A DNA stretch of 13,373 nucleotides from Microcaldota archaeon (GCA_023247085.1 JAHFHC010000026.1:1-13373); one strand, 5' to 3'. Shown: positions 1 through 12,411, numbered from the stretch's first letter. Translations and numbers: made by a program. Notes: generated by a model from the sequence alone, not told the origin.

Positions 1-691
1 CTAGATAACTATCCGGCGTAATTATGCCAGCTACAACGCTTTCACCTAAGCCCCAGCCACCCTCGATTATAGTTTGGTCGTAATTCTTTGTAACTGGGTT
101 AACGCTAAACGCAACGCCGCTTACTTCAGAGTCAACCATTTTCTGCACAACAACTGCAACACTAACCCGCTGGTGTTGTAAATTCTTTTCAAAACGGTAA
201 AAAATTGCACGCGGGGTAAACAAAGAAGACCAACACTTCTGCACTTTTTCAAGAAGATCTTCTTCAGTTACATTCGTGTAGCTTTCCAGTTCACCGGCCC
301 AACTAGCAGTTGAACCATCTTCAGCAGTTGCACTTGATCGAACTGCTACAAACTGAGTTGCCATTTGACCAAATTCATGCACAATTGCCTGTTCAACATC
401 AGTCGGCATGCCCCCGTCTTCAATTAACTTGCGAATAGTTTCAGACGCTTTATCAACACTTGCCGGGTCTTTTGCATCAACTTCAAATAAAGCAGATTTA
501 ATTTTCTCTTCAAGATTATTAAATTTAATAAAAGAGTCAAAAGCGGGAGTAATAACCGTAAAACCAGGCGGAACCGCTATACCGTGAGTGAACATTTCAC
601 CAAGAGACGCGCCTTTGCCACCTGCAATTGCAACATCTCCTTTTCCTAGTTTAGAGAAGTGACGTACAAAATCATGGTGGTGAATTGCCAT
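1..691 (-). CDS. ppsA: Phosphoenolpyruvate synthase, N-terminal ATP-grasp part (partial, runs off left edge)
   Basis: The 230 visible residues are the nucleotide-binding (PPDK_N) domain of PEP synthase, which converts pyruvate and ATP to PEP, AMP and phosphate through a phosphohistidine in a later domain. Visible signatures are GGKGASLGEM at residues 24-33, RSSATAED at 118-125, SLFTPRAIFYR near 156-166, SGVAFSVNP at 191-199 and EGGWGLGE at 210-217. The sequence departs slightly from the usual DLPxASFAGQ block, reading DGSTASWAGE. The ATG at 691-689 is favoured because a GAGGT Shine-Dalgarno lies about 8 nt upstream and the protein then begins like family members. The C-terminal mobile and PEP-binding domains lie outside the window, so a full-length enzyme is assumed, not seen. 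It is the only ATP-grasp-encoding gene here, and it lies beside four proteins carrying only the phosphohistidine half. Pyruvate phosphate dikinase is an alternative; archaeal context favours PEP synthase. Confidence 0.9.
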   Translation of the reverse strand, partial: MAIHHHDFVRHFSKLGKGDVAIAGGKGASLGEMFTHGIAVPPGFTVITPAFDSFIKFNNLEEKIKSALFEVDAKDPASVDKASETIRKLIEDGGMPTDVEQAIVHEFGQMATQFVAVRSSATAEDGSTASWAGELESYTNVTEEDLLEKVQKCWSSLFTPRAIFYRFEKNLQHQRVSVAVVVQKMVDSEVSGVAFSVNPVTKNYDQTIIEGGWGLGESVVAGIITPDSYL

Positions 692-699
692 TTTATATT

Positions 700-704
700 A
701 CCTC
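700..704 (-). promoter_or_regulatory. Shine-Dalgarno site of ppsA
   Basis: The minus strand reads GAGGT followed by AATATAAA and then the ATG. It is one of the few convincing ribosome binding sites in the window and fixes the start of ppsA. Confidence 0.6.
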
Positions 705-723
705 AAACAAATTGTGGTTTTTC

Positions 724-740
724 AGACAAAACAATTGTCT
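724..740. repeat. Perfect 6-bp inverted repeat in the ppsA leader
   Basis: AGACAA, a 5-nt spacer and TTGTCT form a perfect inverted repeat about 33 bp upstream of the ppsA start and downstream of its likely TATA box. It could be an operator or an mRNA hairpin. The surrounding DNA is AT-rich, so chance is possible. Confidence 0.35.
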
Positions 741-781
741 ATTTGGACTAAGCTTGTTGGATAACAATTAGTGTGAAACTA

Positions 782-796
782 GTATTTTATTATAAG
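782..796 (-). promoter_or_regulatory. Probable TATA-box promoter of ppsA
   Basis: Minus strand CTTATAATAAAA resembles an archaeal box A element. Transcription starting about 25 nt downstream would give a leader of roughly 70 nt containing the AGACAA/TTGTCT repeat. Just upstream, 793-808 holds another short imperfect inverted repeat (CCGTC, AAAA, GGCGG) of unknown role. Confidence 0.4.
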
Positions 797-853
797 CCCG
801 TCAAAAGGCGGTTTTGAAAAAAGCGATATTAAATGGAGTATTCCCGGCTTTTT

Positions 854-877
854 AAAAAATGCGAGAAGCAAACTTCT
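854..877 (-). terminator. Hairpin plus T-tract terminator of the structured RNA
   Basis: On the minus strand AGAAG, a UUUG loop and CUUCU are followed by CGCA and six T residues. This would end a transcript coming from the structured region, or act as an attenuator upstream of ppsA. Confidence 0.5.
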
Positions 878-1076
878 TGTTATAGTTAAACCGTGCTTAC
901 TGGTCGACTTTCTTCCCTAACTTCGCTTGGGAACTCGTTTGGCCGTCGAAACGGCAGTACCCAATTGAAGACGTATAAAAGGAAGATTACGCTACCAGCG
1001 AGGACGATTACGTCACTTTCCACCATAGTGGCAAATCACCTGGCTCACTAACCCCTCCTTATTTTTCGTCTAGTAC
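854..1076 (-). ncRNA. Unidentified structured RNA between gene A and ppsA
   Basis: This stretch has no credible ORF and is clearly GC-richer than its flanks. Local perfect hairpins occur at 1020-1031 (CCAC/GTGG), 1003-1014 (GACG/CGTC), 990-1000 (CGCT/AGCG), 942-955 (GCCGT/ACGGC, a UUCG loop on the minus strand) and 913-933 (TTCCC/GGGAA). Two longer-range helices organise them: 1067-1071 with 969-973 plus 1056-1060 with 979-983 enclose the first three hairpins, and 898-902 with 955-959 encloses the other two. A hairpin at 864-877 followed by six T residues ends the region on the minus strand, which sets the strand. I did not find the RNase P CR-I/CR-V motifs, the SRP helix 8 motif, 5S rRNA features or a riboswitch core I know. 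It could be a new small RNA, a divergent housekeeping RNA, or an attenuator-like leader of ppsA. The 5' end is approximate. Confidence 0.5.
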
Positions 1077-1109
1077 ATAAAACGCCGTTAGCCTATTTAC
1101 AATAGCTTG

Positions 1110-1153
1110 AAAAAAAACAGAACTTTAGGGCAAAATACAATGCATAAATGCCC
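1110..1153 (-). terminator. Probable terminator downstream of gene A
   Basis: After the stop of gene A the minus strand has GGGCA and TGCCC arms around a 16-nt loop (1128-1153), followed by a run of eight T residues (1110-1117). Two further T5 runs lie nearer the stop codon. T-rich tracts are the usual archaeal termination signal. The 1077-1109 remainder probably carries the promoter of the structured RNA (a weak TATA-like TTGTAAATAG near 1095-1104). Confidence 0.45.
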
Positions 1154-1195
1154 GAATGACAAAAACTTTGAAAAACTCGGCAGAATAGACATACT

Positions 1196-2746
1196 TTAAG
1201 GTTGCTGGGTTTTTTTGACTATGCCATTAGTAGCGTCTACCGACACTTTGTCGCCGTCTTTAAAGAGTTTAGTGGCTATTTTTGTGCCTATAATACACGG
1301 AATATTCATTTCCCTACTGACAATTGCAGCATGTGAGGTTAAACCACCCATATCTGTGACAATTGCGCTTGCCAAACGCATTGCCGAAACAATATCGGGG
1401 GTTGTTGCATATGAAACTAAAACATCTCCTTTTTGCATTTTTGACATATCTTCTGGCCGATGAATTAGTTTTACTGCGCCCGTTGCTTTGCCCGGACATG
1501 CACAAGTTCCACTTAATTCCTTTAAATTCAAATCAATTTCATCATGTGCTATAAGTGCGCTGTATTTTTCAGCGTCTTTACCCGTTGCAACCACTTCATC
1601 TTCGCCATGGTTGAATAAGCCGTAAATCACGTATTTTGTGCGTTTGGTTAATTCATTTTCATCAATTTTTTCTCCGTTTAGCACGCGTATAATTTCTTCA
1701 AATAGCATGAACCTAACTTGTAAAAACGATAGGTTTAGCCGTTTAGCTATTTCTTTATGCAATGGTTCTGAAGCATATGCTGCAAAAGACATAGCTTCTC
1801 TTCGCAAGGCCTTCCCCTTCATAAAGTCCCTGCCAATTGCAAAAAAGCTTTTTTCTAAGTCAGTTAAACACAACTTACTTTCAAATGATTGTTTTTGCGC
1901 AATAAGTTTTTCTTCATTGTGTTCTAGCTCTTCCAGCATTTTTTCTGGATTTTCTTTTAAAACTAAGTGAAGGGCATCTTCGTAATCTACACGCTTCCAA
2001 GCTGGCCCGCCATAACCATAAGCTAACCAACCAAATTGCAACGCGTGTTTTTCCAATTCATCTTGAAATTCAAGCAAAGTGTCACTAACCTTATTTCTCT
2101 GTTTTATTTTTACTGCAAGTTTTAGTAATTTCCTTTGCTCTTGCTTTGTTTCAGTTTCTCCATCAAAAGAAGATAAAACAGCAACTGCCTCTGAAATAGA
2201 TATGTTCGCCTTGGTTTCCTGATTCTTTTTATCAACTAGGTCGGTGAGAAAAACAGTGTACAGCGGAGAACGTATTTCTATTACAACTGGTAGCATTCCC
2301 CACGTAATCATGCTTCGTATTAATTGCGAATAACGCTCAATATAGCTAACTAATTGGGTGTTTGTTTTTGTTGAAAAGTCAGTTGAGAGTAATTCTTTTG
2401 AAAATAAATTCACTTTTTTAATTTCTTTAAATAAATTTTCATTGACTTTTTTAGCGAAGCTTGGTTCAGTTTTAGTTAAATTAAAATAATGCTGTGCGGC
2501 GTTATCAAAAATAACGGTATCAACTACGTACTTTAAGTGTTGATTTTTTATTTCAACAAAGTTATTCTTTAATCCAAAGCCATAGGCTTTTGGTAAGTCT
2601 TCTATGAAAGTTCTTAGGAATAGTGAAACAAAAAATAAATTGTGAAATTTGCCTTCTTCATTAGCTACTTCAAAATCAATATCAGAAGGGGGAAGGTAGC
2701 TTGTCATTTCTTTCACTTTTCTCTTTGATATCATGTTTAGCGCCAT
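1196..2746 (-). CDS. Phosphohistidine swivelling-domain protein A, lacking ATP-grasp (516 aa)
   Basis: The C-terminal ~107 residues (from 410) form a PEP-utilizing mobile domain: CACPGKA at its entry, GDVLVSYATTPDIV, then [13 protein letters not shown] with the phosphorylatable His at 472 and [12 protein letters not shown] behind it. Residues 1-409 are mostly helical and resemble proteins B-D only weakly. Recognisable common stretches are TKTNTQLVSYIERY near 127-140, a GWLAYGYGGPAW segment near 240, and an FEEIIRVLNGE-type helix before an R-K-rich strand, as in the middle and lid regions of rifampin-phosphotransferase-like enzymes. No PPDK_N or PEP-binding barrel is present, so it cannot by itself complete a PEP synthase cycle. 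It follows regulator H1 with a 114-bp gap and has its own terminator. Starts at residue 5 (2734) or 14 (2707) are possible; the latter lines up with the internal methionine of protein D. The ligand and phosphodonor are unknown. Confidence 0.85.
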   Translation of the reverse strand: MALNMISKRKVKEMTSYLPPSDIDFEVANEEGKFHNLFFVSLFLRTFIEDLPKAYGFGLKNNFVEIKNQHLKYVVDTVIFDNAAQHYFNLTKTEPSFAKKVNENLFKEIKKVNLFSKELLSTDFSTKTNTQLVSYIERYSQLIRSMITWGMLPVVIEIRSPLYTVFLTDLVDKKNQETKANISISEAVAVLSSFDGETETKQEQRKLLKLAVKIKQRNKVSDTLLEFQDELEKHALQFGWLAYGYGGPAWKRVDYEDALHLVLKENPEKMLEELEHNEEKLIAQKQSFESKLCLTDLEKSFFAIGRDFMKGKALRREAMSFAAYASEPLHKEIAKRLNLSFLQVRFMLFEEIIRVLNGEKIDENELTKRTKYVIYGLFNHGEDEVVATGKDAEKYSALIAHDEIDLNLKELSGTCACPGKATGAVKLIHRPEDMSKMQKGDVLVSYATTPDIVSAMRLASAIVTDMGGLTSHAAIVSREMNIPCIIGTKIATKLFKDGDKVSVDATNGIVKKTQQP

Positions 2747-2759
2747 TTGAATTGAGCAC

Positions 2760-2776
2760 TTTAAATAATAAAAATA
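2760..2776 (-). promoter_or_regulatory. TATA-like element upstream of gene A
   Basis: The 114-bp gap between H1 and A contains minus-strand TTATTTTTATTATTTAAAG ending about 15 nt before the ATG. It may give A its own short-leader transcript in addition to read-through from H1. No Shine-Dalgarno is visible at 2746. Confidence 0.3.
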
Positions 2777-2860
2777 AGCCAGCTAGCACAATTAAAGTTT
2801 CAAGTAGAAACATAATAGAAAAGAGAAGAACCGAAATAAGAGATATTAGTAGGCATATGC

Positions 2861-3529
2861 CTATTGCTTATCGTAGGTGTTTTTTCCAACTATTTTCGGA
2901 ATAAGTGTACGCTCTGCCTTGCGTAAGTGGCTTTGTAGAGTTGTACGGGGTACTCCTGCTTTTTTTGCGAGTTCTTCAAGGCTTATCTTACGCGGATAAT
3001 CGTAATATCCATACTGCCTTGCAAGTTGAACCGCTTTTAGCTGTAAGGGCGTTAAATCTGAGAGAAAAGAGCCAGCAAATAGGTTTACATTTCCAGCTTT
3101 CAACGATAGCAGTTCAATTGTTGCTTTTTTAGAGCCTAATGATTTTATTCGTTTGAAAAGTGCCAACAAAGGCGCTTTTTTTAGTGATGCAACAGTCCAG
3201 TATTGAAAACCTTTTTTTGTAATTGTTGAGCCAACGAAAATTAAATTTTTATCGAATAAAAGTGTGTGAAAAGCCTTGTCAGCCGGATGATAGTAGAAAA
3301 CTTGATTGAAGTCACTTGCAATTATGGTTACTCGCCGTTCTTGTTCTATAAAGGCTTTTCTAAACTTTTGTGCGTCTAAGCCAGAAAATGAAGCGCAGCG
3401 TACTATGTGCAGCTTGCCTTTTTCTTCAAACAAGTTTAGGTTAAAATTTGAAAGTACGGCATCAAATCGTTCTGATAATTCAATTGAATCTGATCCAGCG
3501 TGCCAAACTTTGAACTCAGCTATCCACAT
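2861..3529 (-). CDS. HTH_10 (bacterio-opsin activator-type) transcription regulator H1
   Basis: A 222-residue archaeal regulator. The N-terminal ~150 residues form a putative sensor domain starting MWIAEFKVWH and containing FHTLLFDKNLIF and YWTVASL. The C-terminal ~55 residues are an HTH_10 DNA-binding domain: DLTPLQLKAVQLARQYGYYD, then PRKISLEELAKKAGVPRTT leading into a recognition helix SHLRKAE. The frame stays open upstream to a TTG at 3553 and an ATG at 3544, but the ATG at 3529 is chosen because both paralogues in this window begin at exactly MW-(I/V)-A. It lies 27 bp after the transporter stop and precedes phosphohistidine protein A, suggesting it regulates one or both. The signal sensed by the N-terminal domain is unknown. 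Confidence 0.88.
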   Translation of the reverse strand: MWIAEFKVWHAGSDSIELSERFDAVLSNFNLNLFEEKGKLHIVRCASFSGLDAQKFRKAFIEQERRVTIIASDFNQVFYYHPADKAFHTLLFDKNLIFVGSTITKKGFQYWTVASLKKAPLLALFKRIKSLGSKKATIELLSLKAGNVNLFAGSFLSDLTPLQLKAVQLARQYGYYDYPRKISLEELAKKAGVPRTTLQSHLRKAERTLIPKIVGKNTYDKQ

Positions 3530-3556
3530 GAAGATTATGAACATCAAATACAATAT

Positions 3557-4525
3557 CTAGCTATCGTTTCTAGATCGATGCAAAGGCGAATGTAAGAAGT
3601 GGTCGAGTTTCGCATCTGCGCGTATAATTATTTTTTCAAAAACTATAAAGTACAAAAATTGTAAAACCATTATAATTATTGCAGGGATTGCAACAATTGG
3701 ATTAAACAAAGCAAGCGCAAGGGTTATTGAAGTGCCAGTGTTCTTTTGAGTTGCGTAGAGCGTATAATTAACCGCATTTCTAAATCCAGAAACGTGTTTT
3801 GTAAAATGATATACTAAAATTCCAGTTCCAAAAATAGCTAAAAAGTTTATGAGATAAACGTAGATAATTTCCGGATTAGAAAAATCAAGAAAAGCGGCTC
3901 TATTCAATTCGACACTTACAAAAAGCAATATTCCCATGCAAAGGTTTACAATTGCTTTAGAATAATCGAATATACTTGCTCTGCTTCTTCTAAATATAAA
4001 GGAAAGAAAAGTTGGAATTACGATTACTACAAGCAGCACTCGCGTAATTAACATGAATTCAACACTTTTGCCATATAGCGCTAAGAGAGTGACTGGAATT
4101 ATTGCTAGGGAAAGTAAATAAGAGACAAAAATTGAAGAATCTGCAACTTGCAGGTTACATTTAGAAAGATAACAAAGGGGAATTATTGAAATCGCTGGTG
4201 GAACTATGGCAATAAGCACATAGCATATAAGCAACGCGTCATTCTTAAGTAAAAGAAAAGCTAACGCAAGCAAAATCGCAGGAAACAAGATATAATTGAG
4301 AAAAACAGAAGCAACCATTGGCTTGATATTACGCGCTAGGACAAACTTGTGCACAAAAAATGACTTAATTGAAAAGAACATTATAATTGCGAGTACAAGT
4401 TCAATTACAAACTTGAAGTTGTTTACATCGAGCGGTAAAATAAATGGTAGCGCCATTGACAGCAAGAGTATAATTTCAGTATTTTCAAGCCAGTTTTTTA
4501 ACAAAAAATTCACCGCGTTCTGCAT
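3557..4525 (-). CDS. BASS/SBF-type membrane transporter (bile acid:sodium symporter superfamily)
   Basis: A 322-residue polytopic membrane protein with about nine or ten hydrophobic segments (roughly 17-33, 38-57, 70-93, 96-120, 130-151, 158-178, 190-206, 220-241 and 268-300). The motif VPPAIS near 108-113, and TQKNTGTSITLALALF near 259-274 ahead of a final hydrophobic pair, resemble the crossover motifs of sodium/bile-acid symporters and ACR3-like carriers. Family members move organic anions or small solutes, usually with sodium; the substrate here cannot be read from sequence. It lies between regulators H2 (50 bp upstream) and H1 (27 bp downstream) in the same direction, so it is likely co-regulated with the phosphohistidine proteins, perhaps importing or exporting their ligand. 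The short polar C-terminal tail is rich in His, Arg and Ser. Assignment to another auxin-carrier-like family is possible. Confidence 0.6.
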   Translation of the reverse strand: MQNAVNFLLKNWLENTEIILLLSMALPFILPLDVNNFKFVIELVLAIIMFFSIKSFFVHKFVLARNIKPMVASVFLNYILFPAILLALAFLLLKNDALLICYVLIAIVPPAISIIPLCYLSKCNLQVADSSIFVSYLLSLAIIPVTLLALYGKSVEFMLITRVLLVVIVIPTFLSFIFRRSRASIFDYSKAIVNLCMGILLFVSVELNRAAFLDFSNPEIIYVYLINFLAIFGTGILVYHFTKHVSGFRNAVNYTLYATQKNTGTSITLALALFNPIVAIPAIIIMVLQFLYFIVFEKIIIRADAKLDHFLHSPLHRSRNDS

Positions 4526-4575
4526 ATGGGATGATTGATTATACTGCTTGTGGCTTTTAACTTTACTACCGTTGG

Positions 4576-5220
4576 TTAATCATAGGAAACGATGTGCGGC
4601 ATTATTCTTTCCTCTGCTCGACGCAAGTGTTCTTTGAAAGTAGAATAAGAGATCTTTGCAATTTTTGCAAGTTGTTCAAGCGAAACTTTTCTTGGGTAGG
4701 TATAGTAGCCTTCTTTACATGCAAGTTGAAAAGCAGCTAATTGTTTTGCAGTTAAATCAGTTAATGCGTTGTTGACGAAAAAGTTAAAACTCTCTTCTTT
4801 TATTCCAATGAGTTCAGCTGTTGCGTCATTCATTTTTTTTAATCGCTCAAATACGCTTAACAAATTTTCTTTTGTCCATGAAGCAACGTACCAAGTTAGT
4901 TTGCCATTTTGCATTGTTTGAGGCCGAAAGAAAAAAACGCTTTTATCAAGTGCAAGAGAATGAAACGCTTCTAATGCAGGAACCGAATAGAAGATTTGGT
5001 GTCCTTCAATCTTGTGTACACGTAATCTCTTGTCCTTGTGAAACTCTTGCAAGTATTTTTCTGCATCTGGACCACTTGCAAATACGGCCTTGTTTACCCA
5101 AGGTTCTCCGTTTTCTTCAAATGTGTTTAAGTAAAGGTTATGCGCAACTACGTCGTACTTTTTAGTTAATTCAGTTGCAACGCTTCCCTTGTGCCATACT
5201 CGAAATTCAGCTACCCACAT
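4576..5220 (-). CDS. HTH_10 (bacterio-opsin activator-type) transcription regulator H2
   Basis: A 214-residue paralogue of H1 and H3. It starts MWVAEFRVWHKGS, has the shared FHSLALDKSVFFF and WYVASW blocks in the N-terminal sensor-like region, and ends with an HTH_10 domain from about residue 150: DLTAKQLAAFQLACKEGYY, PRKVSLEQLAKIAKISYST and EHLRRAEERIMP. The start codon lies one base after the stop of protein B, with GTGAGG as a good Shine-Dalgarno inside the end of B, so H2 is almost certainly translated from the C-B-H2 mRNA. That coupling is the strongest evidence in the window that these regulators work with the phosphohistidine proteins, as an autoregulator or as a direct partner. DNA targets and ligand are unknown. 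Confidence 0.9.
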   Translation of the reverse strand: MWVAEFRVWHKGSVATELTKKYDVVAHNLYLNTFEENGEPWVNKAVFASGPDAEKYLQEFHKDKRLRVHKIEGHQIFYSVPALEAFHSLALDKSVFFFRPQTMQNGKLTWYVASWTKENLLSVFERLKKMNDATAELIGIKEESFNFFVNNALTDLTAKQLAAFQLACKEGYYTYPRKVSLEQLAKIAKISYSTFKEHLRRAEERIMPHIVSYD

Positions 5221-5221
5221 T

Positions 5222-6772
5222 CTAAGCTCGCCTCACTGTGCCATGAGTTGCGTCGACAATAAGGTTGTCGCCATCTTTGAACACCTTAGTTGCTATTTTA
5301 GTTCCAATAACACAAGGGATGTTAAGTTCGCGGCTAACAATAGCGGCATGGCAAGTGATTCCACCCATGTCAGTTACAATTGCACTTGCTTTTTTCATGG
5401 CTGGAACAATGTCTGGGGTCGTTGCCCTGCTGACTAGAATATCTCCTTGTTTCATTTTATCCATTTCTTGCGTGAGATTGATAACCTTAGCTTGACCTTC
5501 GCCTTTGCCTGGACAAGCACAGTCCCCTTTAATTTCGCTTGACGGGGTTACTTGCTCTATTTCAAAATCAACGTCAGCAAAGAACTTCTTTGCTTCATCT
5601 CCAGCTAAAACCGTTTTTTGTTTTCCATCATAGTGGAACACGCGAAAAGCATATCGTTTATTTAGCAAATCTATATCGACCTTGCCACTTCTAAGCGCGG
5701 GTTCAATTTCCCACGACATTAACATGCGAAATTGCTTTAGTGAAAGCCCTAAGCGTTTTGCTCCTTCTTTGAAAAAGTTTTCTAGGCAAAACAACCCATG
5801 ATAAATTCCATCTTTTCGATAAGCTTTAGTATAAATCATTGACTGTGAAAGAAGCACGTATTTTTGATGAAGCTCATCAAACCCAAGTTTTTCCATTAAA
5901 TCATCTTGCTGTTTTGGCAAGTCCATGTAAAACTGCTGTTTGCACTGCAGTTCCTCTACAAGTTCACTTTCGCTACGCTTACAAAGCTCTTGAATTACCT
6001 CCGCAAAATATTCTCTATTCCACCCTGGGCCAAGGTACATGAAGGATAACCAGCGGTACTTTTCAAAATGTTCGTCAAATGATTTTGCAAAAACAGGTGA
6101 GGCAACTTGGAGATCGCTAAGTATTTTGGCAACTGTGTTTGATTGTGCAAATAATTGTGATAATTTTGTATTTCCTTTTACTTTAATTGCGAGACCAAGA
6201 ATTTCTTCTTCTTCAAGTTTAGCAAATGTTTTCTCTCGCGGGGTTGACAAGAAGGAAAAAACTTTGTTTGAGATTAAGTCAAGTTTTTTAGCGGCAATAC
6301 ATTTAGCAATGTAGCTATTTACAAAAGAGGAGAGTAATTGGTCTTCGTATTCAACGTAGTTCCAAGGCATTCCATATCCATGTGCCTCTCGCCGCACAGT
6401 TGCCCATTGTTCAATTGCCTTGCCTAGTTCAGCATTTGATAATTTCTTTGGATCAGTTTTGCGAATTGACTCCGACAATGCAAATAGCTTATCAGTTGTT
6501 TCAATTATTTTTGCTGAAATGCCAAAAGCCCAATTTAAATCAGTTGTTATTTTGTCAAAAAAAGCTTTTGAAGTTGCGCGAAATTCACTGCGCTTAAAAC
6601 AAAGTACGTCGTAGTCTTTTTCAGATTTTATAATTGTTTGAGTGACTATCCCGTTTGGAATGCCGTACTTATGTGCGTCAACGCAGCATAGTTTTGCATC
6701 AACTGCTAGAAGTGGATGGGAATTTTCAATTTCTTCCATTACAAACCATTTGTCATGCTGTTGAGTTTTCAT
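5222..6772 (-). CDS. Phosphohistidine swivelling-domain protein B, lacking ATP-grasp (516 aa)
   Basis: Paralogue of A, C and D. The swivelling domain begins near residue 413 with CACPGKG, continues through [14 protein letters not shown], and has [14 protein letters not shown] with the active His at 475; the TCHAA variant is also the one I recall for bacterial Pps[13 protein letters not shown] and [10 protein letters not shown] close the domain. The N-terminal ~410 residues are divergent and helical: [12 protein letters not shown] near 8-19, [14 protein letters not shown] near 111-124, a [12 protein letters not shown] segment matching GWLAYGYGGPAW of A, and an [17 protein letters not shown] stretch before the carrier domain. 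The ATG overlaps the TGA of gene C (ATGA), so the pair is translationally coupled, and regulator H2 follows after one base. No ATP-binding front end is present. Substrate and phosphodonor are unknown; a role as small-molecule phosphotransferase, phosphorelay carrier or sensor is inference. Confidence 0.85.
5231..5236 (-). promoter_or_regulatory. Shine-Dalgarno site of regulator H2 inside the end of gene B
   Basis: Minus-strand GTGAGG lies 10 nt before the H2 ATG, within the last codons of B. It supports the MWVAEF start and co-translation of B and H2. Confidence 0.5.
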
Positions 6773-8340
6773 AACTTTCTAATTACTCCATTTGTCGCAT
6801 CTACTTCAATAACGTCACCGTCTTTTAGCCACTTCGTTGCAATCTTTGTACCTATAACACAAGGAATTTTTAATTCTCTGCTAACAATCGCAGCGTGTGA
6901 AGTTACCCCGCCCTGTTCAGTGATTATTGCCACTGCTTTCTTCATCGCAGGCACAATATCCGGATCAGTAGCGATGCTTACTAATACATCGCCTTGATTC
7001 ATCTTGTGCATATCTCCTGGCCCTAAAATAACCTTGACGGTTCCAGTTGCTTTACCAAGACAAGCACATTGCCCTTTTAACTCTTGCATGCTTTTGTCAA
7101 TTTCAACTTTAGCAGCTTGAGCTTCTAGTTTCTTCGCAGTGTCACTTGTGAACAAGAAACGCTTGCCTTTTTCAGTGTAAAAACAACAAAATTTAAAACG
7201 TTCGCGCAATTCATTCGCATCTGGCTTCTTATTTTTAACTAGATAATCTTCAAGCTCTTCCCATAGCATTGTCCTAACTTCATCGGGGGTTAATTGCAAT
7301 CTACGGCAAACTTCCTTTACCCAGGCATCAAGGTAAAACCAGTTTAAAATTTGGCTGTTGCGCCTATACCATTTCGTAACCATGAACTTTGCATAAACTG
7401 CAAGTAAACGCTGTAACCTGCTGTCGAGGTTTAACTCCTTAATTAGCTTCTTTTTTTCAATTGCAGTTTTTTCAAGCGTTGAATCGAGTTCTTCCAACTC
7501 TTTAGCTGCGTCTTTACCGTGCAATAAATATTCATGCACTTGATCGAAATAGAAATTTATGTTTGCAGGAGTGCCGTGGTACATAAACTTCAAGTGGCGA
7601 AACGCTTTGCAATGTTTTTCAAATTTTGACTTCAACGCTTTAGAAATTTCGGCGTTTATCTCAAGATTAGAACTAGAGCCTCCTCGAAATAATTTTTCAA
7701 TTTCTGGCGCTTTTTGCACTTCAATGATTAAATGCAATAAACTCCTATGTTCTTGAGTTGCAATTGTCTCTTCATCTGCAGCAGTGAGTTTAACAAAATA
7801 TTCGCTTAACTTTGATTCGTCTTCGACTTTTTCTAGCAAAAGTGATTTCAAGTAGTTCGTTAGCTCTGGGTAAAACATGTCAACTGCGTTTGGAAGCCAA
7901 CCCCAGCGGTAAAGCACCAAGTGTACATCATTGTTCTTTTTGTAAAGCTCCCATAATTCTTTTCCAGATAGTTTTTCAAGCGGCGCTTTGTGAATCTCCT
8001 TTGCAGTTTCAACTAACTTATTCGACCACTTTGTGATGTTCGCGTTAATTTCTTCACCGTAACCCGGATCTGCTTTTAGCTTATCTAGAATTGCAAGGCA
8101 AAACGCGTGACAATCTTTTTTCCCATAGTAAAAATGCTGGTCGTACTCGCGGTGAAAAGAAATTACTTTTTTGTAGTTTCGGCCAAGAGAATAGTGCATT
8201 TCATTTGTAAACGCATGGAGCCAAACTTGCGCGAATTGCAACGTAATTCCCGGGATATGCTCACCAAGCATCCACGAATCGCCATCGTAAAGATGCACAG
8301 CTTTACTTGGCTCCCTAAACAGTTGAAAGTTAAAAATCAT
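6769..8340 (-). CDS. Phosphohistidine swivelling-domain protein C, lacking ATP-grasp (523 aa)
   Basis: First gene of the C-B-H2 unit. The carrier domain starts near residue 420 with CACLGKA (the only member with Leu for Pro), then [28 protein letters not shown] with His482, and [12 protein letters not shown]. The N-terminal region is the most distinct of the four: it opens [20 protein letters not shown] and is rich in His, Tyr and Trp between about 38 and 75. It then rejoins the shared helical layout at [14 protein letters not shown] near 124-137, [13 protein letters not shown] near 249, and [20 protein letters not shown] ahead of an RERFKF strand. That last stretch looks like the region just before the carrier domain of rifampin-phosphotransferase-like enzymes. 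It lacks any ATP-grasp domain. The variable N-terminus suggests a different ligand from B although both are made from one mRNA. The start ATG has only a weak upstream GTGGG. Confidence 0.85.
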
Positions 8341-8401
8341 AAGAAATACCCACTATTTAGCGGTTTTTCACCTATTTATTTTTTACCCGCCAAGTGGCGG
8401 C
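8341..8401 (-). promoter_or_regulatory. Gap before gene C: inverted repeat and TATA-like A/T stretch
   Basis: The 61-bp gap between the asparaginase-like gene and C has a perfect CCGCC-AAGT-GGCGG inverted repeat at 8387-8400, immediately after the upstream stop codon. Minus-strand TAAAAAATAAATAGG (8372-8386) follows, and CTAAATAG lies near 8353-8360. These could be a promoter for C-B-H2, but the genes could equally be read from truD. The hairpin lacks a T-tract on the coding strand. Confidence 0.3.
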
Positions 8402-8893
8402 TCACCTTTCGGGTTCAAACATGCCTGTTTTGAAGTTTTTCTTTACATTATTCCACGTAAAGATTTTGCCGTCCATTGCAACATAAACGCCTACTGGCAA
8501 AAGTTGAACTGCGATAATAGCTCCGCCTAAATTAAAGAAAGCATCTGAATTAGTTTTGTTACCAAGCACAGCTGAGCCAACGAGTACAATGGTTTTTTTA
8601 AGTTTCTTTTTTCCTAAGAATTTAGCGGTTAAAGGCATAGTCATAGTGCCATGAGTTATGACGATTTGCTTTTCTTTGGATTTCAAACAACGATCGAAGA
8701 TAAACTCGCGGTCTCCATCAGTTATGAACTTGCTATCTTTTTGCATTAATAATTCTAATTCGTATTCAATGCTCAAGCGCGCTCGTTCAAGAAATTCAGG
8801 GATAATAGATAAGTGTCTTGGAGGCGCCTTATTTGCCGAACTATACTCTAAACCATCAATAGTTCCACCAGTAATTATTATTCGAATTGCCAT
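8402..8893 (-). CDS. Short asparaginase-fold protein with altered active site (163 aa)
   Basis: Matches the N-terminal alpha/beta domain of L-asparaginases: ITGGTIDG at 7-14 with the nucleophile-type Thr11, ITDGDREFI near 57-65, VITHGTMTM near 78-86, VLVGSAVLGNKTNSDAFFNL near 103-122, and AVQLLPVGVYVAMDGKIF near 128-145. At about half the length of true asparaginases it belongs to a short family that keeps only this domain. In the usual HGTDT motif the Asp is replaced by Met84 (codon ATG), removing a residue normally needed with the catalytic Thr. It may therefore be inactive toward asparagine, or bind or hydrolyse something else. The ATG at 8893 gives the family-typical start MAIRIIITGGTI; a GTG at 8926, one base after the truD stop, would add an 11-residue hydrophobic extension. 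It follows truD in the same direction. Confidence 0.75.
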   Translation of the reverse strand: MAIRIIITGGTIDGLEYSSANKAPPRHLSIIPEFLERARLSIEYELELLMQKDSKFITDGDREFIFDRCLKSKEKQIVITHGTMTMPLTAKFLGKKKLKKTIVLVGSAVLGNKTNSDAFFNLGGAIIAVQLLPVGVYVAMDGKIFTWNNVKKNFKTGMFEPER

Positions 8894-8927
8894 GAATAGC
8901 ACTAAACGAACAAAAGATAAAAGCACA

Positions 8928-10145
8928 TTAGGTTGCTTTTCCTAAAAGGGATTCAAGTGCAACTGTTGCGTAATTGCCAGAAGAAAGGCAAAAGGTTACT
9001 TTGGCTGGCTCTTTTTCAACTATTGCAAAGTGAGATATTGGCGCAATACTAGCGCGGAGTGTTCCTTTGCTGCTTAATTCAGGAATGCTTTTCAGCTTGA
9101 ACTGTGACTGGGTCATGCCTTCCTTTTCCAGCAGTTCCTTCTCAACATCGGTAATTTCGCTTTCGTAGCCAACGAGGTTTAGCAAGGGGAATACTTTTCC
9201 GTTGACAACGGACTCGCTTAAGTCTCGGTCTGCGGTTTTTATCTTTTCATCTTGCGGGAAGCCATAAACTAGTTCAGCTTCGCAGTATTTTTCGCCCGAA
9301 TCTAGACTAAATAGTGTTTTGCCAGCTATTTTTTTCTTAATTACTTCGTTGAATAAATAACTTTGAAAAGCGTGAACAAAAAGTAGCATAGTATGACGCG
9401 GTAATTTACGGAATGCCCCAATATAGTCAGTTGGATGTTGCGCTAAATGTCCAATCATTGTACGTTCGAATTTCAAATGTGGCGAAAAGTAGCCAAGCGC
9501 TTTTTTGAAGTCAAGTTCTTCTGCTAATCGCTTTCGTCCAGCTACTGCTTCTTGGTTTCTTTCGTTTTCGTCAGTGTAAGTCAAGTAATTCAAAACTGCT
9601 TCTTTCCAATTTTCAGTAAGCAGTGCTTTGCCAACCAAGTGTGAATTCATGCGTAGAGAACCGAACCGCTGGTAGCCAAAATAGTTTGGAAACAAAAAAT
9701 GGTTTCGCTCAGCATTTTGTTGAATTTGTTCTGCGCTTATTTTCTTTCCAACGTTTTGTTCAGTAAGGGTAATCGTGAACTTGTTTCCAAGCAAGTCGCC
9801 AAGTTCTACTTTTTTATCGCTTACCCACGCACCGTTAATTGAAATGTCCTTTACGCGAATGTTGAGAAGTTGTTCCGGCTTTGCACCGAAAACGCTGCAT
9901 AACTGTACAGTAATTGCATTTCTGTCTTTTGCGCCTGCTGCGTTGAAGCGAGTTCGGCCACCTCGAATTGCACGCGCAATTGCATTTAACGCCTGCGCTG
10001 TGTTCCAAAGTTTCTTTTCAAGCACAAAATAACAGAATTTGCCGCCTTCGGCATTTTGATGTTCAATTTTTTTACTGACTTCAAATATAGTGCCATCTAA
10101 GGCTATTTCTTCGACAATAAATTCTTCTGGGTTAAATTTGTACAT
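8928..10145 (-). CDS. truD: tRNA pseudouridine synthase TruD
   Basis: A complete 405-residue TruD-family enzyme (bacterial TruD, eukaryotic Pus7), which isomerises uridine to pseudouridine, classically at position 13 of tRNA. Visible signatures are FCYFVLEKKLWNTAQAL near 37-53, AAGAKDRNAITVQL near 69-82 with the catalytic Asp74, NYFGYQRFGS at 154-163, and FVHAFQSYLFN near 255-265. The length is normal for an archaeal member including the TRUD insertion domain between the last two motifs. The ATG at 10145 faces the start of regulator H3 across a 47-bp divergent gap and has no clear Shine-Dalgarno, so the mRNA may be nearly leaderless. The asparaginase-like gene follows downstream. It is a housekeeping gene and marks the conserved edge of the cluster. 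Confidence 0.95.
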   Translation of the reverse strand: MYKFNPEEFIVEEIALDGTIFEVSKKIEHQNAEGGKFCYFVLEKKLWNTAQALNAIARAIRGGRTRFNAAGAKDRNAITVQLCSVFGAKPEQLLNIRVKDISINGAWVSDKKVELGDLLGNKFTITLTEQNVGKKISAEQIQQNAERNHFLFPNYFGYQRFGSLRMNSHLVGKALLTENWKEAVLNYLTYTDENERNQEAVAGRKRLAEELDFKKALGYFSPHLKFERTMIGHLAQHPTDYIGAFRKLPRHTMLLFVHAFQSYLFNEVIKKKIAGKTLFSLDSGEKYCEAELVYGFPQDEKIKTADRDLSESVVNGKVFPLLNLVGYESEITDVEKELLEKEGMTQSQFKLKSIPELSSKGTLRASIAPISHFAIVEKEPAKVTFCLSSGNYATVALESLLGKAT

Positions 10146-10192
10146 GAGAAGTAAAGATTATTAGCTTGGAGAAAGTTAATTAAGTTCTCAAT
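10145..10192. promoter_or_regulatory. Divergent promoter region between truD and regulator H3
   Basis: Only 47 bp separate the two starts. A palindromic TTAATTAA (10176-10183) lies 31-38 bp from the truD ATG and suits its TATA box. AAAGATTATTAG (10153-10164) lies at a similar distance before H3. A 6-bp inverted repeat, TGAGAA at 10145-10150 and TTCTCA at 10185-10190, brackets the whole gap with arms 40 bp apart and could be an operator for H3. Confidence 0.35.
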
Positions 10193-10846
10193 ATGTGGAT
10201 AGCTCGATTTAAAGTCTGGCACAAACAATCAGCTGCTATTTTTACGCACGGGAAAGACGTGCAGTACTTTGGCTACTTCTTGAACAGTTTTTACAAAGGA
10301 AAAAAGCTCTACGTCAACCGCATTGCGCTTATTTCCGGCAGCGACGCAGGTTATTTAATTGAACAAATCAAAAAACAAAAGTGGGCAGACGTAAAGTGGA
10401 TCGAAGGTAACACGATGTTATTTTGCAATGAGGTCGGCAGTTCTTTTCACACGCTTTTTTCTGATGGAACTGTTTTTTTCTTAAAGCCTATAATTGTAAA
10501 AAATGGTTTTGAGTATTGGGAGGTGGCAAGCTGGGACAAAAAGCACATAAACACGCTTTTCCAACGAGTAAAAAAAGTTGGAAGAAAAACAGCTACAATA
10601 GAGTTACTTGAATTAAAGAATAAAAAAATTAGTGCGTTCTTTTCACTTGCGCATACAGATTTAACTTCAAAGCAACTTGAATACCTAAAAGTAGCATGTA
10701 ATAACGGATATTATGATTTTCCGCGTCGCGTTAGTTTAAAACAATTAGCGAACAAAATTGGCGAATCTCGTACAACACTACAGGATCGCATTCGACGTGC
10801 TGAAAAGGCAATTATGCCTGCAGTTGTTGAAGAAATAGCCGAATAA
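10193..10846 (+). CDS. HTH_10 (bacterio-opsin activator-type) transcription regulator H3
   Basis: A 217-residue paralogue of H1 and H2. It opens MWIARFKVWHKQS and has FHTLFSDGTVFFL and YWEVASWDKK in the sensor-like N-terminal region. It ends with an HTH_10 domain from about residue 155: DLTSKQLEYLKVACNNGYYD, PRRVSLKQLANKIGESRTT and DRIRRAEKAIMP. The ATG fits the MW start shared by all three. It is transcribed divergently from truD and is followed 26 bp later by phosphohistidine protein D, so it is the third regulator paired with such a protein. The first ~50 residues diverge most from H1 and H2, consistent with a different signal. Control of D and of its own promoter is likely but inferred. 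Confidence 0.9.
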   Translation: MWIARFKVWHKQSAAIFTHGKDVQYFGYFLNSFYKGKKLYVNRIALISGSDAGYLIEQIKKQKWADVKWIEGNTMLFCNEVGSSFHTLFSDGTVFFLKPIIVKNGFEYWEVASWDKKHINTLFQRVKKVGRKTATIELLELKNKKISAFFSLAHTDLTSKQLEYLKVACNNGYYDFPRRVSLKQLANKIGESRTTLQDRIRRAEKAIMPAVVEEIAE

Positions 10847-10852
10847 GGGACA

Positions 10853-10868
10853 CGGCTTATGCCGGGGA
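10853..10868 (+). promoter_or_regulatory. Short hairpin overlapping a possible Shine-Dalgarno of gene D
   Basis: CGGC-TTAT-GCCG (10853-10864) abuts GGGGA (10864-10868), which lies four bases before the ATG at 10873. The site supports that start over the internal ATG at 10912, which has no upstream purine-rich element. The hairpin could modulate translation. Confidence 0.3.
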
Positions 10869-10872
10869 TATT

Positions 10873-12411
10873 ATGAAAAACGTTTCGCGTTCTAAAAAAC
10901 TTGTTAAACTTATGACTAATTGGCAAGTTATTGAAGAAATTCCAGTGTCCAGTATATTTCCTTGGCCCTACGCTTGGCTCGGATGGGTTAGGCGCATAAA
11001 GCAATACTTAGGCACTAGTTTCACAGAGGGGCGAACTGCGTCAGTAAATGGCGCAATTTGGCATATTGCGAATACGAATGAAGCACTAGCTTTGGCTGAA
11101 CTTGGAATCAAAAAAATACAAGATCAAAAATTCGTCAACATGGTTGAAAAAGAGACTTATAAAGTAATGCACGAAGCCAAAGAATTTTGGATAAACGAAA
11201 TTGCGAACGCGGAGTTATCAAAGAAAACCAATGCAGAGCTGCTTGAAATTTATAATAAATCAAACGAGCATATAGAAGCGCTGTACGGCGTTGGGTTGAT
11301 TCCCTCTACGCTTGACATGAGCCACAATGCATTTTCTGAAAAGTTGTCGAGATATGTAGCTCAACGCGGAAAAAGCCTCGGGTTAACCGCTCAAGAGAGC
11401 GGCGAAGCGTTTTCTGCGTTGACAACAGTTGAAAAGAAAACACTACAACAATTGCAAGAAGAGGACTTTTTCAAGCTACTTATTGCTATTGAAAAAAATT
11501 CAGAATGGAAAAAATCTCTTGTTAGCGGAAAATGGAGCGATGTTAAACCGCTAAAAAATATGATTGAAGCACATGCTGAGAAATACGGTTGGCTTTCGCG
11601 CGGATATGAAGGTCCAATCTTATGGACGCCTGAATATTTTGCTGATTTACTTTCAAGCGAAGCTAAACAAGGGGTAAATGCAGAGAAGAAGCTTGTCGAA
11701 ATGGGAGACGCAAAGAAAAAATCACTTGCAAAGCAACGCGAGTACAGTGATAAACTCGAAATAGACGCAGCGCATGCACAGCTTTTTGATGTTGCACGAA
11801 GGTTTACGGTTGTTAAGAATGACCGCAAGGATATTGTGCTTGAGTTTTACTGGCGGTTGGATAAACTAATGCGTGAGATTGGTAAACGCTTGCAAGTAAG
11901 TGAAAAGCAAGCTAAGTACATTTTACCAAATGAAATGAAAGACGCGTTGTTGCGTGGAGAAGTGGATGCAAATGAGCTTCGTAACCGGCAGAAGTTAAGC
12001 TACTTCACTGTAACTTCAAATGATTTCAAGATTTTTACAGGTAAAGAAGCGCAAACGTTCATTTCCAGCCTACAAGTTACTAATGTTGAAACACACGAAC
12101 TTCGAGGCCACTGTGCTTGTCCAGGTAAAGCTATTGGCGTTGTAAAGATAATCAATTCACCTTCGGAAATGACAAAAATGAAAAGTGGAGACGTGCTGGT
12201 TTCACATGCAACTGAGCCAAACTTAGTTCCCGCTATGAAACTAGCTGCGGCGATTGTAACGGATCAAGGCGGAATCACTAGCCACGCGGCAATTGTAAGT
12301 AGAGAATTGGGAATACCCTGTTTAATTGGAACTAAAATAGCAACTAAGGTGTTCAAAGACGGAGATAAAGTAGAAGTTGATGCAGCCAGTGGAGTTATTA
12401 GAAAACTTTAG
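10873..12411 (+). CDS. Phosphohistidine swivelling-domain protein D, lacking ATP-grasp (512 aa)
   Basis: Fourth member of the A-D family, on the opposite strand. The carrier domain begins near residue 409 with CACPGKA, then [28 protein letters not shown] with His471, [12 protein letters not shown] and VDAASGVIRKL. The N-terminal ~400 residues share only the layout with A-C: NWQVIEEIPVSS near 16-27, KKTNAELLEIYNKSNE near 117-132, GWLSRGYEGPILW near 237-249, and LLRGEVDANELRNRQKL near 358-374 just before the carrier domain. There is no PPDK_N or PEP-binding barrel. It forms a two-gene unit with regulator H3. An internal start at residue 14 (MTNWQVIEEI) aligns better with the N-terminus of B but lacks a ribosome site. 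The function is unknown; phosphohistidine-based transfer to a specific small molecule, or signalling to H3, are the options I would test. Confidence 0.85.
   Translation: MKNVSRSKKLVKLMTNWQVIEEIPVSSIFPWPYAWLGWVRRIKQYLGTSFTEGRTASVNGAIWHIANTNEALALAELGIKKIQDQKFVNMVEKETYKVMHEAKEFWINEIANAELSKKTNAELLEIYNKSNEHIEALYGVGLIPSTLDMSHNAFSEKLSRYVAQRGKSLGLTAQESGEAFSALTTVEKKTLQQLQEEDFFKLLIAIEKNSEWKKSLVSGKWSDVKPLKNMIEAHAEKYGWLSRGYEGPILWTPEYFADLLSSEAKQGVNAEKKLVEMGDAKKKSLAKQREYSDKLEIDAAHAQLFDVARRFTVVKNDRKDIVLEFYWRLDKLMREIGKRLQVSEKQAKYILPNEMKDALLRGEVDANELRNRQKLSYFTVTSNDFKIFTGKEAQTFISSLQVTNVETHELRGHCACPGKAIGVVKIINSPSEMTKMKSGDVLVSHATEPNLVPAMKLAAAIVTDQGGITSHAAIVSRELGIPCLIGTKIATKVFKDGDKVEVDAASGVIRKL

Follow-up and report, generated by a model that had tools for sequence, protein, structure and literature searches.

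A micrarchaeal gene cluster that probably encodes a split small-molecule dikinase, with one ATP-grasp loader, several acceptor subunits and HTH_10 regulators

The window studied here, that is, the whole stretch of DNA that was analysed (13,373 nucleotides), is an entire contig of a genome of 892,562 bases, 92% complete, whose relatives are labelled Candidatus Micrarchaeota. The initial annotation of this DNA described four proteins ending in a phosphohistidine domain (A to D) and three HTH_10 regulators (H1 to H3), and all seven open reading frames were found at the positions and on the strands assigned to them, including the gaps of one base between B and H2 and of 26 bp between H3 and D. A genome-wide profile search retrieved 16 PF00391 matches in the host genome. 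In addition, the 0.89 Mb contain three HTH_10 matches, which are H1 to H3 and all lie inside the window, and two PF01326 ATP-grasp matches, one of which is inside the window. Since PF00391 matches occur genome-wide while the sole three HTH_10 proteins all map here, the clustering is not due to chance, and the observation on A to D and H1 to H3 is confirmed as real.

The features of the locus are collected in Table 1. The truD gene next to H3 was recognised by a PF01142 match, while no Pfam family matched the 322-aa membrane-like protein. The asparaginase-like protein, whose C-terminal domain is absent, is encoded in the directon of C, upstream of it. The search for RNA elements in the window gave no Rfam match, the spacer between the loader and A included. 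This 504-bp spacer shows 89% identity to the same-genus spacer, against 66-81% at third positions of codons in the genes on either side; judged from its sequence, it is probably regulatory, maybe a long leader.

Table 1. Features of the window, with the support for each assignment
Feature	Position	Strand	Support
Stand-alone ATP-grasp (PPDK_N) loader, N-terminal 230 residues	2..691	-	PF01326; gene continues beyond the window's left edge
Spacer, loader to A	692..1195	.	Same-genus conservation; no Rfam match
Acceptor subunit A: helical substrate-binding domain and His swivel	1196..2746	-	PF00391 at residues 438-508; family alignment
Regulator H1, HTH_10 subfamily starting MW[VI]AEFKVWH	2861..3553	-	PF04967 E 2.4e-19; subfamily alignment
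322-aa membrane-like protein between H1 and H2	3557..4525	-	Same-genus position conserved
Regulator H2	4576..5220	-	PF04967; AF2 pLDDT 91.8
Acceptor subunit B; swivel residues 411-516; catalytic His475	5222..6772	-	AF2, RPH match, His column
Acceptor subunit C, 4-base overlap with start of B	6769..8340	-	PF00391; family alignment
Asparaginase N-terminal-domain protein, 174 aa	8402..8926	-	PF00710 E 8e-20
Regulator H3, 26 bp before D; divergent from truD	10193..10846	+	PF04967 E 2.1e-18
Acceptor subunit D	10873..12411	+	PF00391; family alignment

A to D can be aligned end to end with 32-34% identity and form a paralogue family. Pfam recognises PF00391 alone, at the C-terminus (E 1e-24 to 1e-26), which corresponds to a PEP-utilizer swivel domain with its histidine intact, as proposed initially. 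NCBIfam also returned swivel-domain matches, with PEP synthase as the best, together with weaker matches to the RPH and PigC models that reach back into the N-terminal region. The absence of an ATP-grasp domain, claimed in the initial annotation, was borne out by Pfam, by the AF2 model of B and by the structural alignment to RPH; the same holds for the PEP/pyruvate barrel, given that the chains stop after the swivel domain (Pfam, AF2 model).

Specifically, the AF2 model of B, built with 35 relatives (pLDDT 93.3, pTM 0.89), contains no ATP-grasp and is mostly helical up to about residue 375, followed by the swivel domain. Foldseek searches carried out with this model gave six RPH structures as the best matches (E 4.7e-15). 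When B was compared to RPH 5fbt by VIA-align, 450 residues were aligned (Z 20.4, rmsd 5.3 A), with B 2-516 mapping onto RPH 323-866, so that B begins where the RPH ATP-grasp ends; pyruvate kinase reached a Z slightly above that of RPH, but over the swivel domain alone. The same relation emerged without structure, as the acceptor-family profile matches RPH 445-866 at 1e-30, and A, C and D align with the modelled B. The model and the RPH fold match rule out that the N-terminal region of A to D conceals an ATP-grasp: these ~400 residues are predicted to adopt the RPH substrate-binding fold and not a divergent ATP-grasp. A reading of A to D as truncated ordinary PEP synthases was likewise discarded, the N-terminal region forming a separate family and the genome encoding a normal PEP synthase elsewhere.

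The catalytic histidine, encoded in B at 5350-5348, is conserved in 35 of the 36 acceptors that were aligned, and a GGxTxHA-type motif was found in 65 of the 67 acceptors collected, one of the two exceptions being a 62-aa fragment. Orthologous groups of acceptors persist across genera with 40-58% identity. In RPH, Arg666, Glu667 and Lys670 handle phosphate (PMC4844700); the acceptors show the basic residues K316/R319/K320 in the Arg666/Lys670 region, while Glu667 is not conserved. By score, the acceptor swivel domain is closer to PEP synthase than to RPH and, therefore, may not descend directly from RPH. A single acceptor (L142:7802-8944, corresponding to gene L113:11333-12475) is devoid of the GG-x-T-x-H segment and probably cannot carry phosphate. 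Free-standing swivel domains of 108 residues were also detected (L024:5908-6231(+) and L226:7494-7817(-)), adjoining acceptors or a full-length dikinase.

That nothing would load the histidine, as the initial annotation implied, is not supported: a separate ATP-grasp gene belongs to the same cluster and lies partly in the window, 504 bp downstream of A. On this window-edge reading frame, PF01326 matched model positions 2-220 of 328 with 248 bits (DNA 5-631(-)), and the ATP-binding motifs GGKGA and VAVRSSATAED are intact. The fragment is 98% identical to a complete stand-alone protein of 319 aa from the same genus (L102:1530-2486(-)), which holds GGKGA, VRSSATAED, DIEWA and VQSRPITTL and ends at RPITTL, exactly the end of the ATP-grasp domain. 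Its gene order is that of the window: loader, A, H1, membrane-like protein, H2 and B.

In a FastTree analysis of ATP-grasp domains, the loaders and the fused domains described below grouped in one clade apart from the PEP synthases, with a support of 1.0 for eleven and 0.968 for thirteen of them, and with two PEP synthases of family f9 as the nearest outside sequences. Members of the loader clade are 54-58% identical to the same-genus loader, compared to 42-48% for PEP synthases. Of the 29 genomes in the order, 8 have a stand-alone loader; all 8 belong to the 19 with at least three PF00391 matches and none to the other 10, a split with a chance of ~0.018 by simple counting in which relatedness is ignored. 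In seven of these eight genomes the loader adjoins an acceptor, the exception being G021. One more candidate, L121, was dropped, as by motif and identity it is a contig-edge PEP synthase. In two genera (genomes G007 and G015), a HAD-family phosphatase gene lies directly beside the loader (L107:6428-7051 and L106:10340-10930). We also observed a PEP synthase (L235:883-5025(-)) carrying an intein (PF14890 and LAGLIDADG_3) within its ATP-grasp domain.

Proteins from other families of the class join loader and acceptor in a single chain. In genome G120, a 1339-aa protein (L221:260-4276(+)) has the order N-swivel-N-swivel-ATPgrasp, that is, two tandem acceptor units and one ATP-grasp, and is the only PF01326 match of that genome. 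Swivel-ATPgrasp fusions (L230 and L215) occur in genomes G194 and G241, with a frame break in that of G241, and an ATPgrasp-N-swivel chain, which is the RPH order, in G152 (L226). Genome G080 holds six acceptors over several contigs and one intact 312-aa stand-alone loader, with no PEP synthase found. On the other side, no stand-alone loader but only full PEP synthase was detected in several acceptor-rich genomes, notably G012 (19 PF00391 matches, 8 contigs, 90% complete) and G011, and in the acceptor-containing genomes of family f18, so that the acceptor histidine would need another donor there. The missing loaders may reflect incompleteness for some genomes, and PEP synthase or another phosphoryl donor for others.

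H1 to H3 are 38-43% identical to one another and also form a paralogue family, matching PF04967 with 66-69 bits (cut-off 23.1). In the AF2 model of H2, a sigma-region-4-like HTH follows an N-domain of ACT/ferredoxin-like fold. Small-molecule binding is frequent among ACT-like folds. Structural matches of H2 gave Z-scores of 7 to 9, in the range of common arrangements, and the sole near-full-length structural match of the regulator is PDB 5M86 (Ta1207), on which no paper was found.

Within the order, all 32 regulators of the H1-H3 subfamily adjoin an acceptor-family gene, compared to 1.6 expected by random placement. For 31 of them an acceptor lies within 1 kb, and for the remaining one what comes then is the N-terminal part of an acceptor at a contig end; in 26 the distance is within 300 bp, always on the same strand, with the regulator upstream in 23. 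The 32 pairings are not independent, as paralogues are included and the species share descent, yet they span several genera. No acceptor neighbours were seen for the HTH_10 proteins sampled outside the order. The regulator-acceptor pairing noticed at this locus thus recurs across genomes far above background, but in one direction: each such regulator has an acceptor, while the majority of acceptors stand without one (32 regulators vs ~165 acceptors in the order, the latter being the 192 PF00391 matches minus PEP synthases). A regulator-acceptor pair is also present in a Thaumarchaeota-labelled MAG and, more loosely, on a Woesearchaeota contig (L151/L157), which may reflect transfer or mis-binning.

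In conclusion, the cluster probably encodes a split small-molecule dikinase in which one loader serves many acceptor subunits, and a multi-copy small-molecule-modifying system, as suggested initially, is the best reading. Sequence and structure give the identities of the domains, the intactness of the catalytic motifs, the split itself, neighbourhoods and fusions; from these we infer phosphotransfer, loader sharing, substrates and regulator ligands. With ATP as donor, and AMP and phosphate as by-products, the loader would phosphorylate the swivel-domain histidine of separate acceptor chains, namely A to D and about ten more in the genome. From there, each acceptor would hand the phosphoryl group on to a small-molecule ligand of its helical domain, which is the counterpart of the RPH rifampin-binding domain, so that a single loader could serve many acceptor paralogues that differ in substrate. 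The neighbouring HTH_10 regulators probably sense substrate or product via the ACT-like domain and control the operon of that acceptor. More tentatively, and with somewhat less than even confidence, we propose a hub-and-spoke network, in which a dozen or more acceptors, with a separate substrate for each, are charged by one ATP-grasp protein, and HTH_10/ACT-like regulators switch single spokes according to substrate. If true, its wiring would make it an ATP-driven analogue of the PTS in archaea, and exchangeable acceptors would evolve like substrate-specific subunits.

A different use of the same parts would be a signalling phosphorelay, with the phosphorylation state of the acceptors, and not a chemical product, controlling the HTH_10 proteins in a PTS-like manner. 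The close pairing of regulators with acceptors on one strand, the fanning out of one loader to many His proteins and the ACT-like domain, which could serve for docking a partner, are compatible with such a relay. We nevertheless hold it to be rather unlikely: the acceptors retain a complete RPH-like domain for substrate binding (~300 helical residues), needless for a relay, most of them have no regulator nearby, and Pfam found no PTS-regulated domain in the regulators. A low probability is also assigned to the loader being dedicated to one or two acceptors, the others being served by full-length PEP synthase or by phosphoryl exchange between small molecules without any ATP-grasp. The acceptor-bearing genomes having only PEP synthase (G012, G011 and f18) fit this scheme, and HpeH by itself transfers phosphate to acetovanillone from phosphoacetophenone (PMC12167813); G080, having six acceptors and a stand-alone loader in the absence of PEP synthase, argues against it, as does the clade that the loader has in common with the fused acceptor enzymes.

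That the A-D family is inactive or structural, consisting of duplicated remnants of a dikinase after loader loss, appears highly improbable. The copy number is indeed large and variable, and one acceptor (L142:7802-8944) is without the His segment, but the motif is kept in nearly all the others and orthologous groups have persisted across genera.

As regards the substrates of the split dikinase, in one genus (G014, G017 and G024; three species) the module is interleaved with histidine-degradation genes (L098, L099, L100, L108 and L109). Specifically, these encode histidine ammonia-lyase (HutH-like), urocanase (HutU-like), formiminotransferase (FTCD) and an amidohydrolase read as imidazolonepropionase (HutI-like). 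Such neighbours recur in this genus only, the other neighbours of acceptor modules being varied, and we consider the histidine-degradation, HAD phosphatase and asparaginase-domain genes as hints only.

Two-component dikinases were described in 2025, from a few bacterial aromatic-degradation pathways and only as simple pairs; in the literature searched, no paper was found on acceptor or loader proteins in Micrarchaeota. What is new here is the amplification of the split to more than ten acceptors with one ATP-using partner in sub-megabase Micrarchaeota, together with dedicated regulators for some acceptors and fusion proteins that record the loader-acceptor partnership. A split dikinase of this kind would predict a whole set of phosphorylated small molecules in DPANN archaea and enzyme diversification by sharing one catalytic half, and it offers a testable function for many genes annotated merely as PEP-utilizing enzyme or PEP synthase.

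Among known systems, RPH (PDB 5FBT, 5HV1) shares with B the fold over residues 2-516, the C-terminal swivel and, at the Arg666 and Lys670 positions, basic residues of a putative phosphate-binding patch. It differs in being a single chain with its own ATP-grasp, which A to D do not have; identity is ~18%, Glu667 is not kept in the A-D family and nothing points to rifampin, the RPH substrate, for the archaeal acceptors. PEP synthase and PPDK have the same ATP-grasp and swivel domains as the system described here, in which both are closest by sequence to archaeal PEP synthase, but they carry a PEP/pyruvate barrel, in place of which the archaeal system has a helical RPH-like domain, with the parts in separate genes. 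H1 to H3 share with the Bat-type archaeal HTH_10 regulators the PF04967 C-terminal domain with its sigma-region-4-like HTH; they belong, however, to a distinct subfamily, with the MW[VI]AEFKVWH start and the ACT/ferredoxin-like N-domain, encoded beside dikinase acceptors.

The system is not without precedent, contrary to what was initially thought, since HpeHI (Rhodococcus rhodochrous GD02), CreHI and phenylphosphate synthase PpsAB are two-component dikinases split alike, one protein corresponding to the RPH ATP-grasp and the other to the RPH substrate and swivel domains (PMC12167813). The archaeal system shows both anatomical traits of the HpeHI/PpsAB type, namely a loader, complete in L102, and RPH-like acceptors. 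As in HpeHI, the ATP-grasp protein (HpeI) is separate from the substrate-binding and swivel protein (HpeH), and a conserved histidine is the phosphoryl carrier, a role that is predicted in the archaeal case. HpeHI differs in being bacterial, with phenolic substrates and one loader reported with one acceptor; HTH_10 regulators are absent, and multi-acceptor expansion is not reported. HpeH has a Met two residues before the His, where archaeal acceptors mostly show a PEP-synthase-like Thr. Finally, the tandem acceptor-acceptor-loader fusion sets the archaeal system apart from the HpeHI/PpsAB type.
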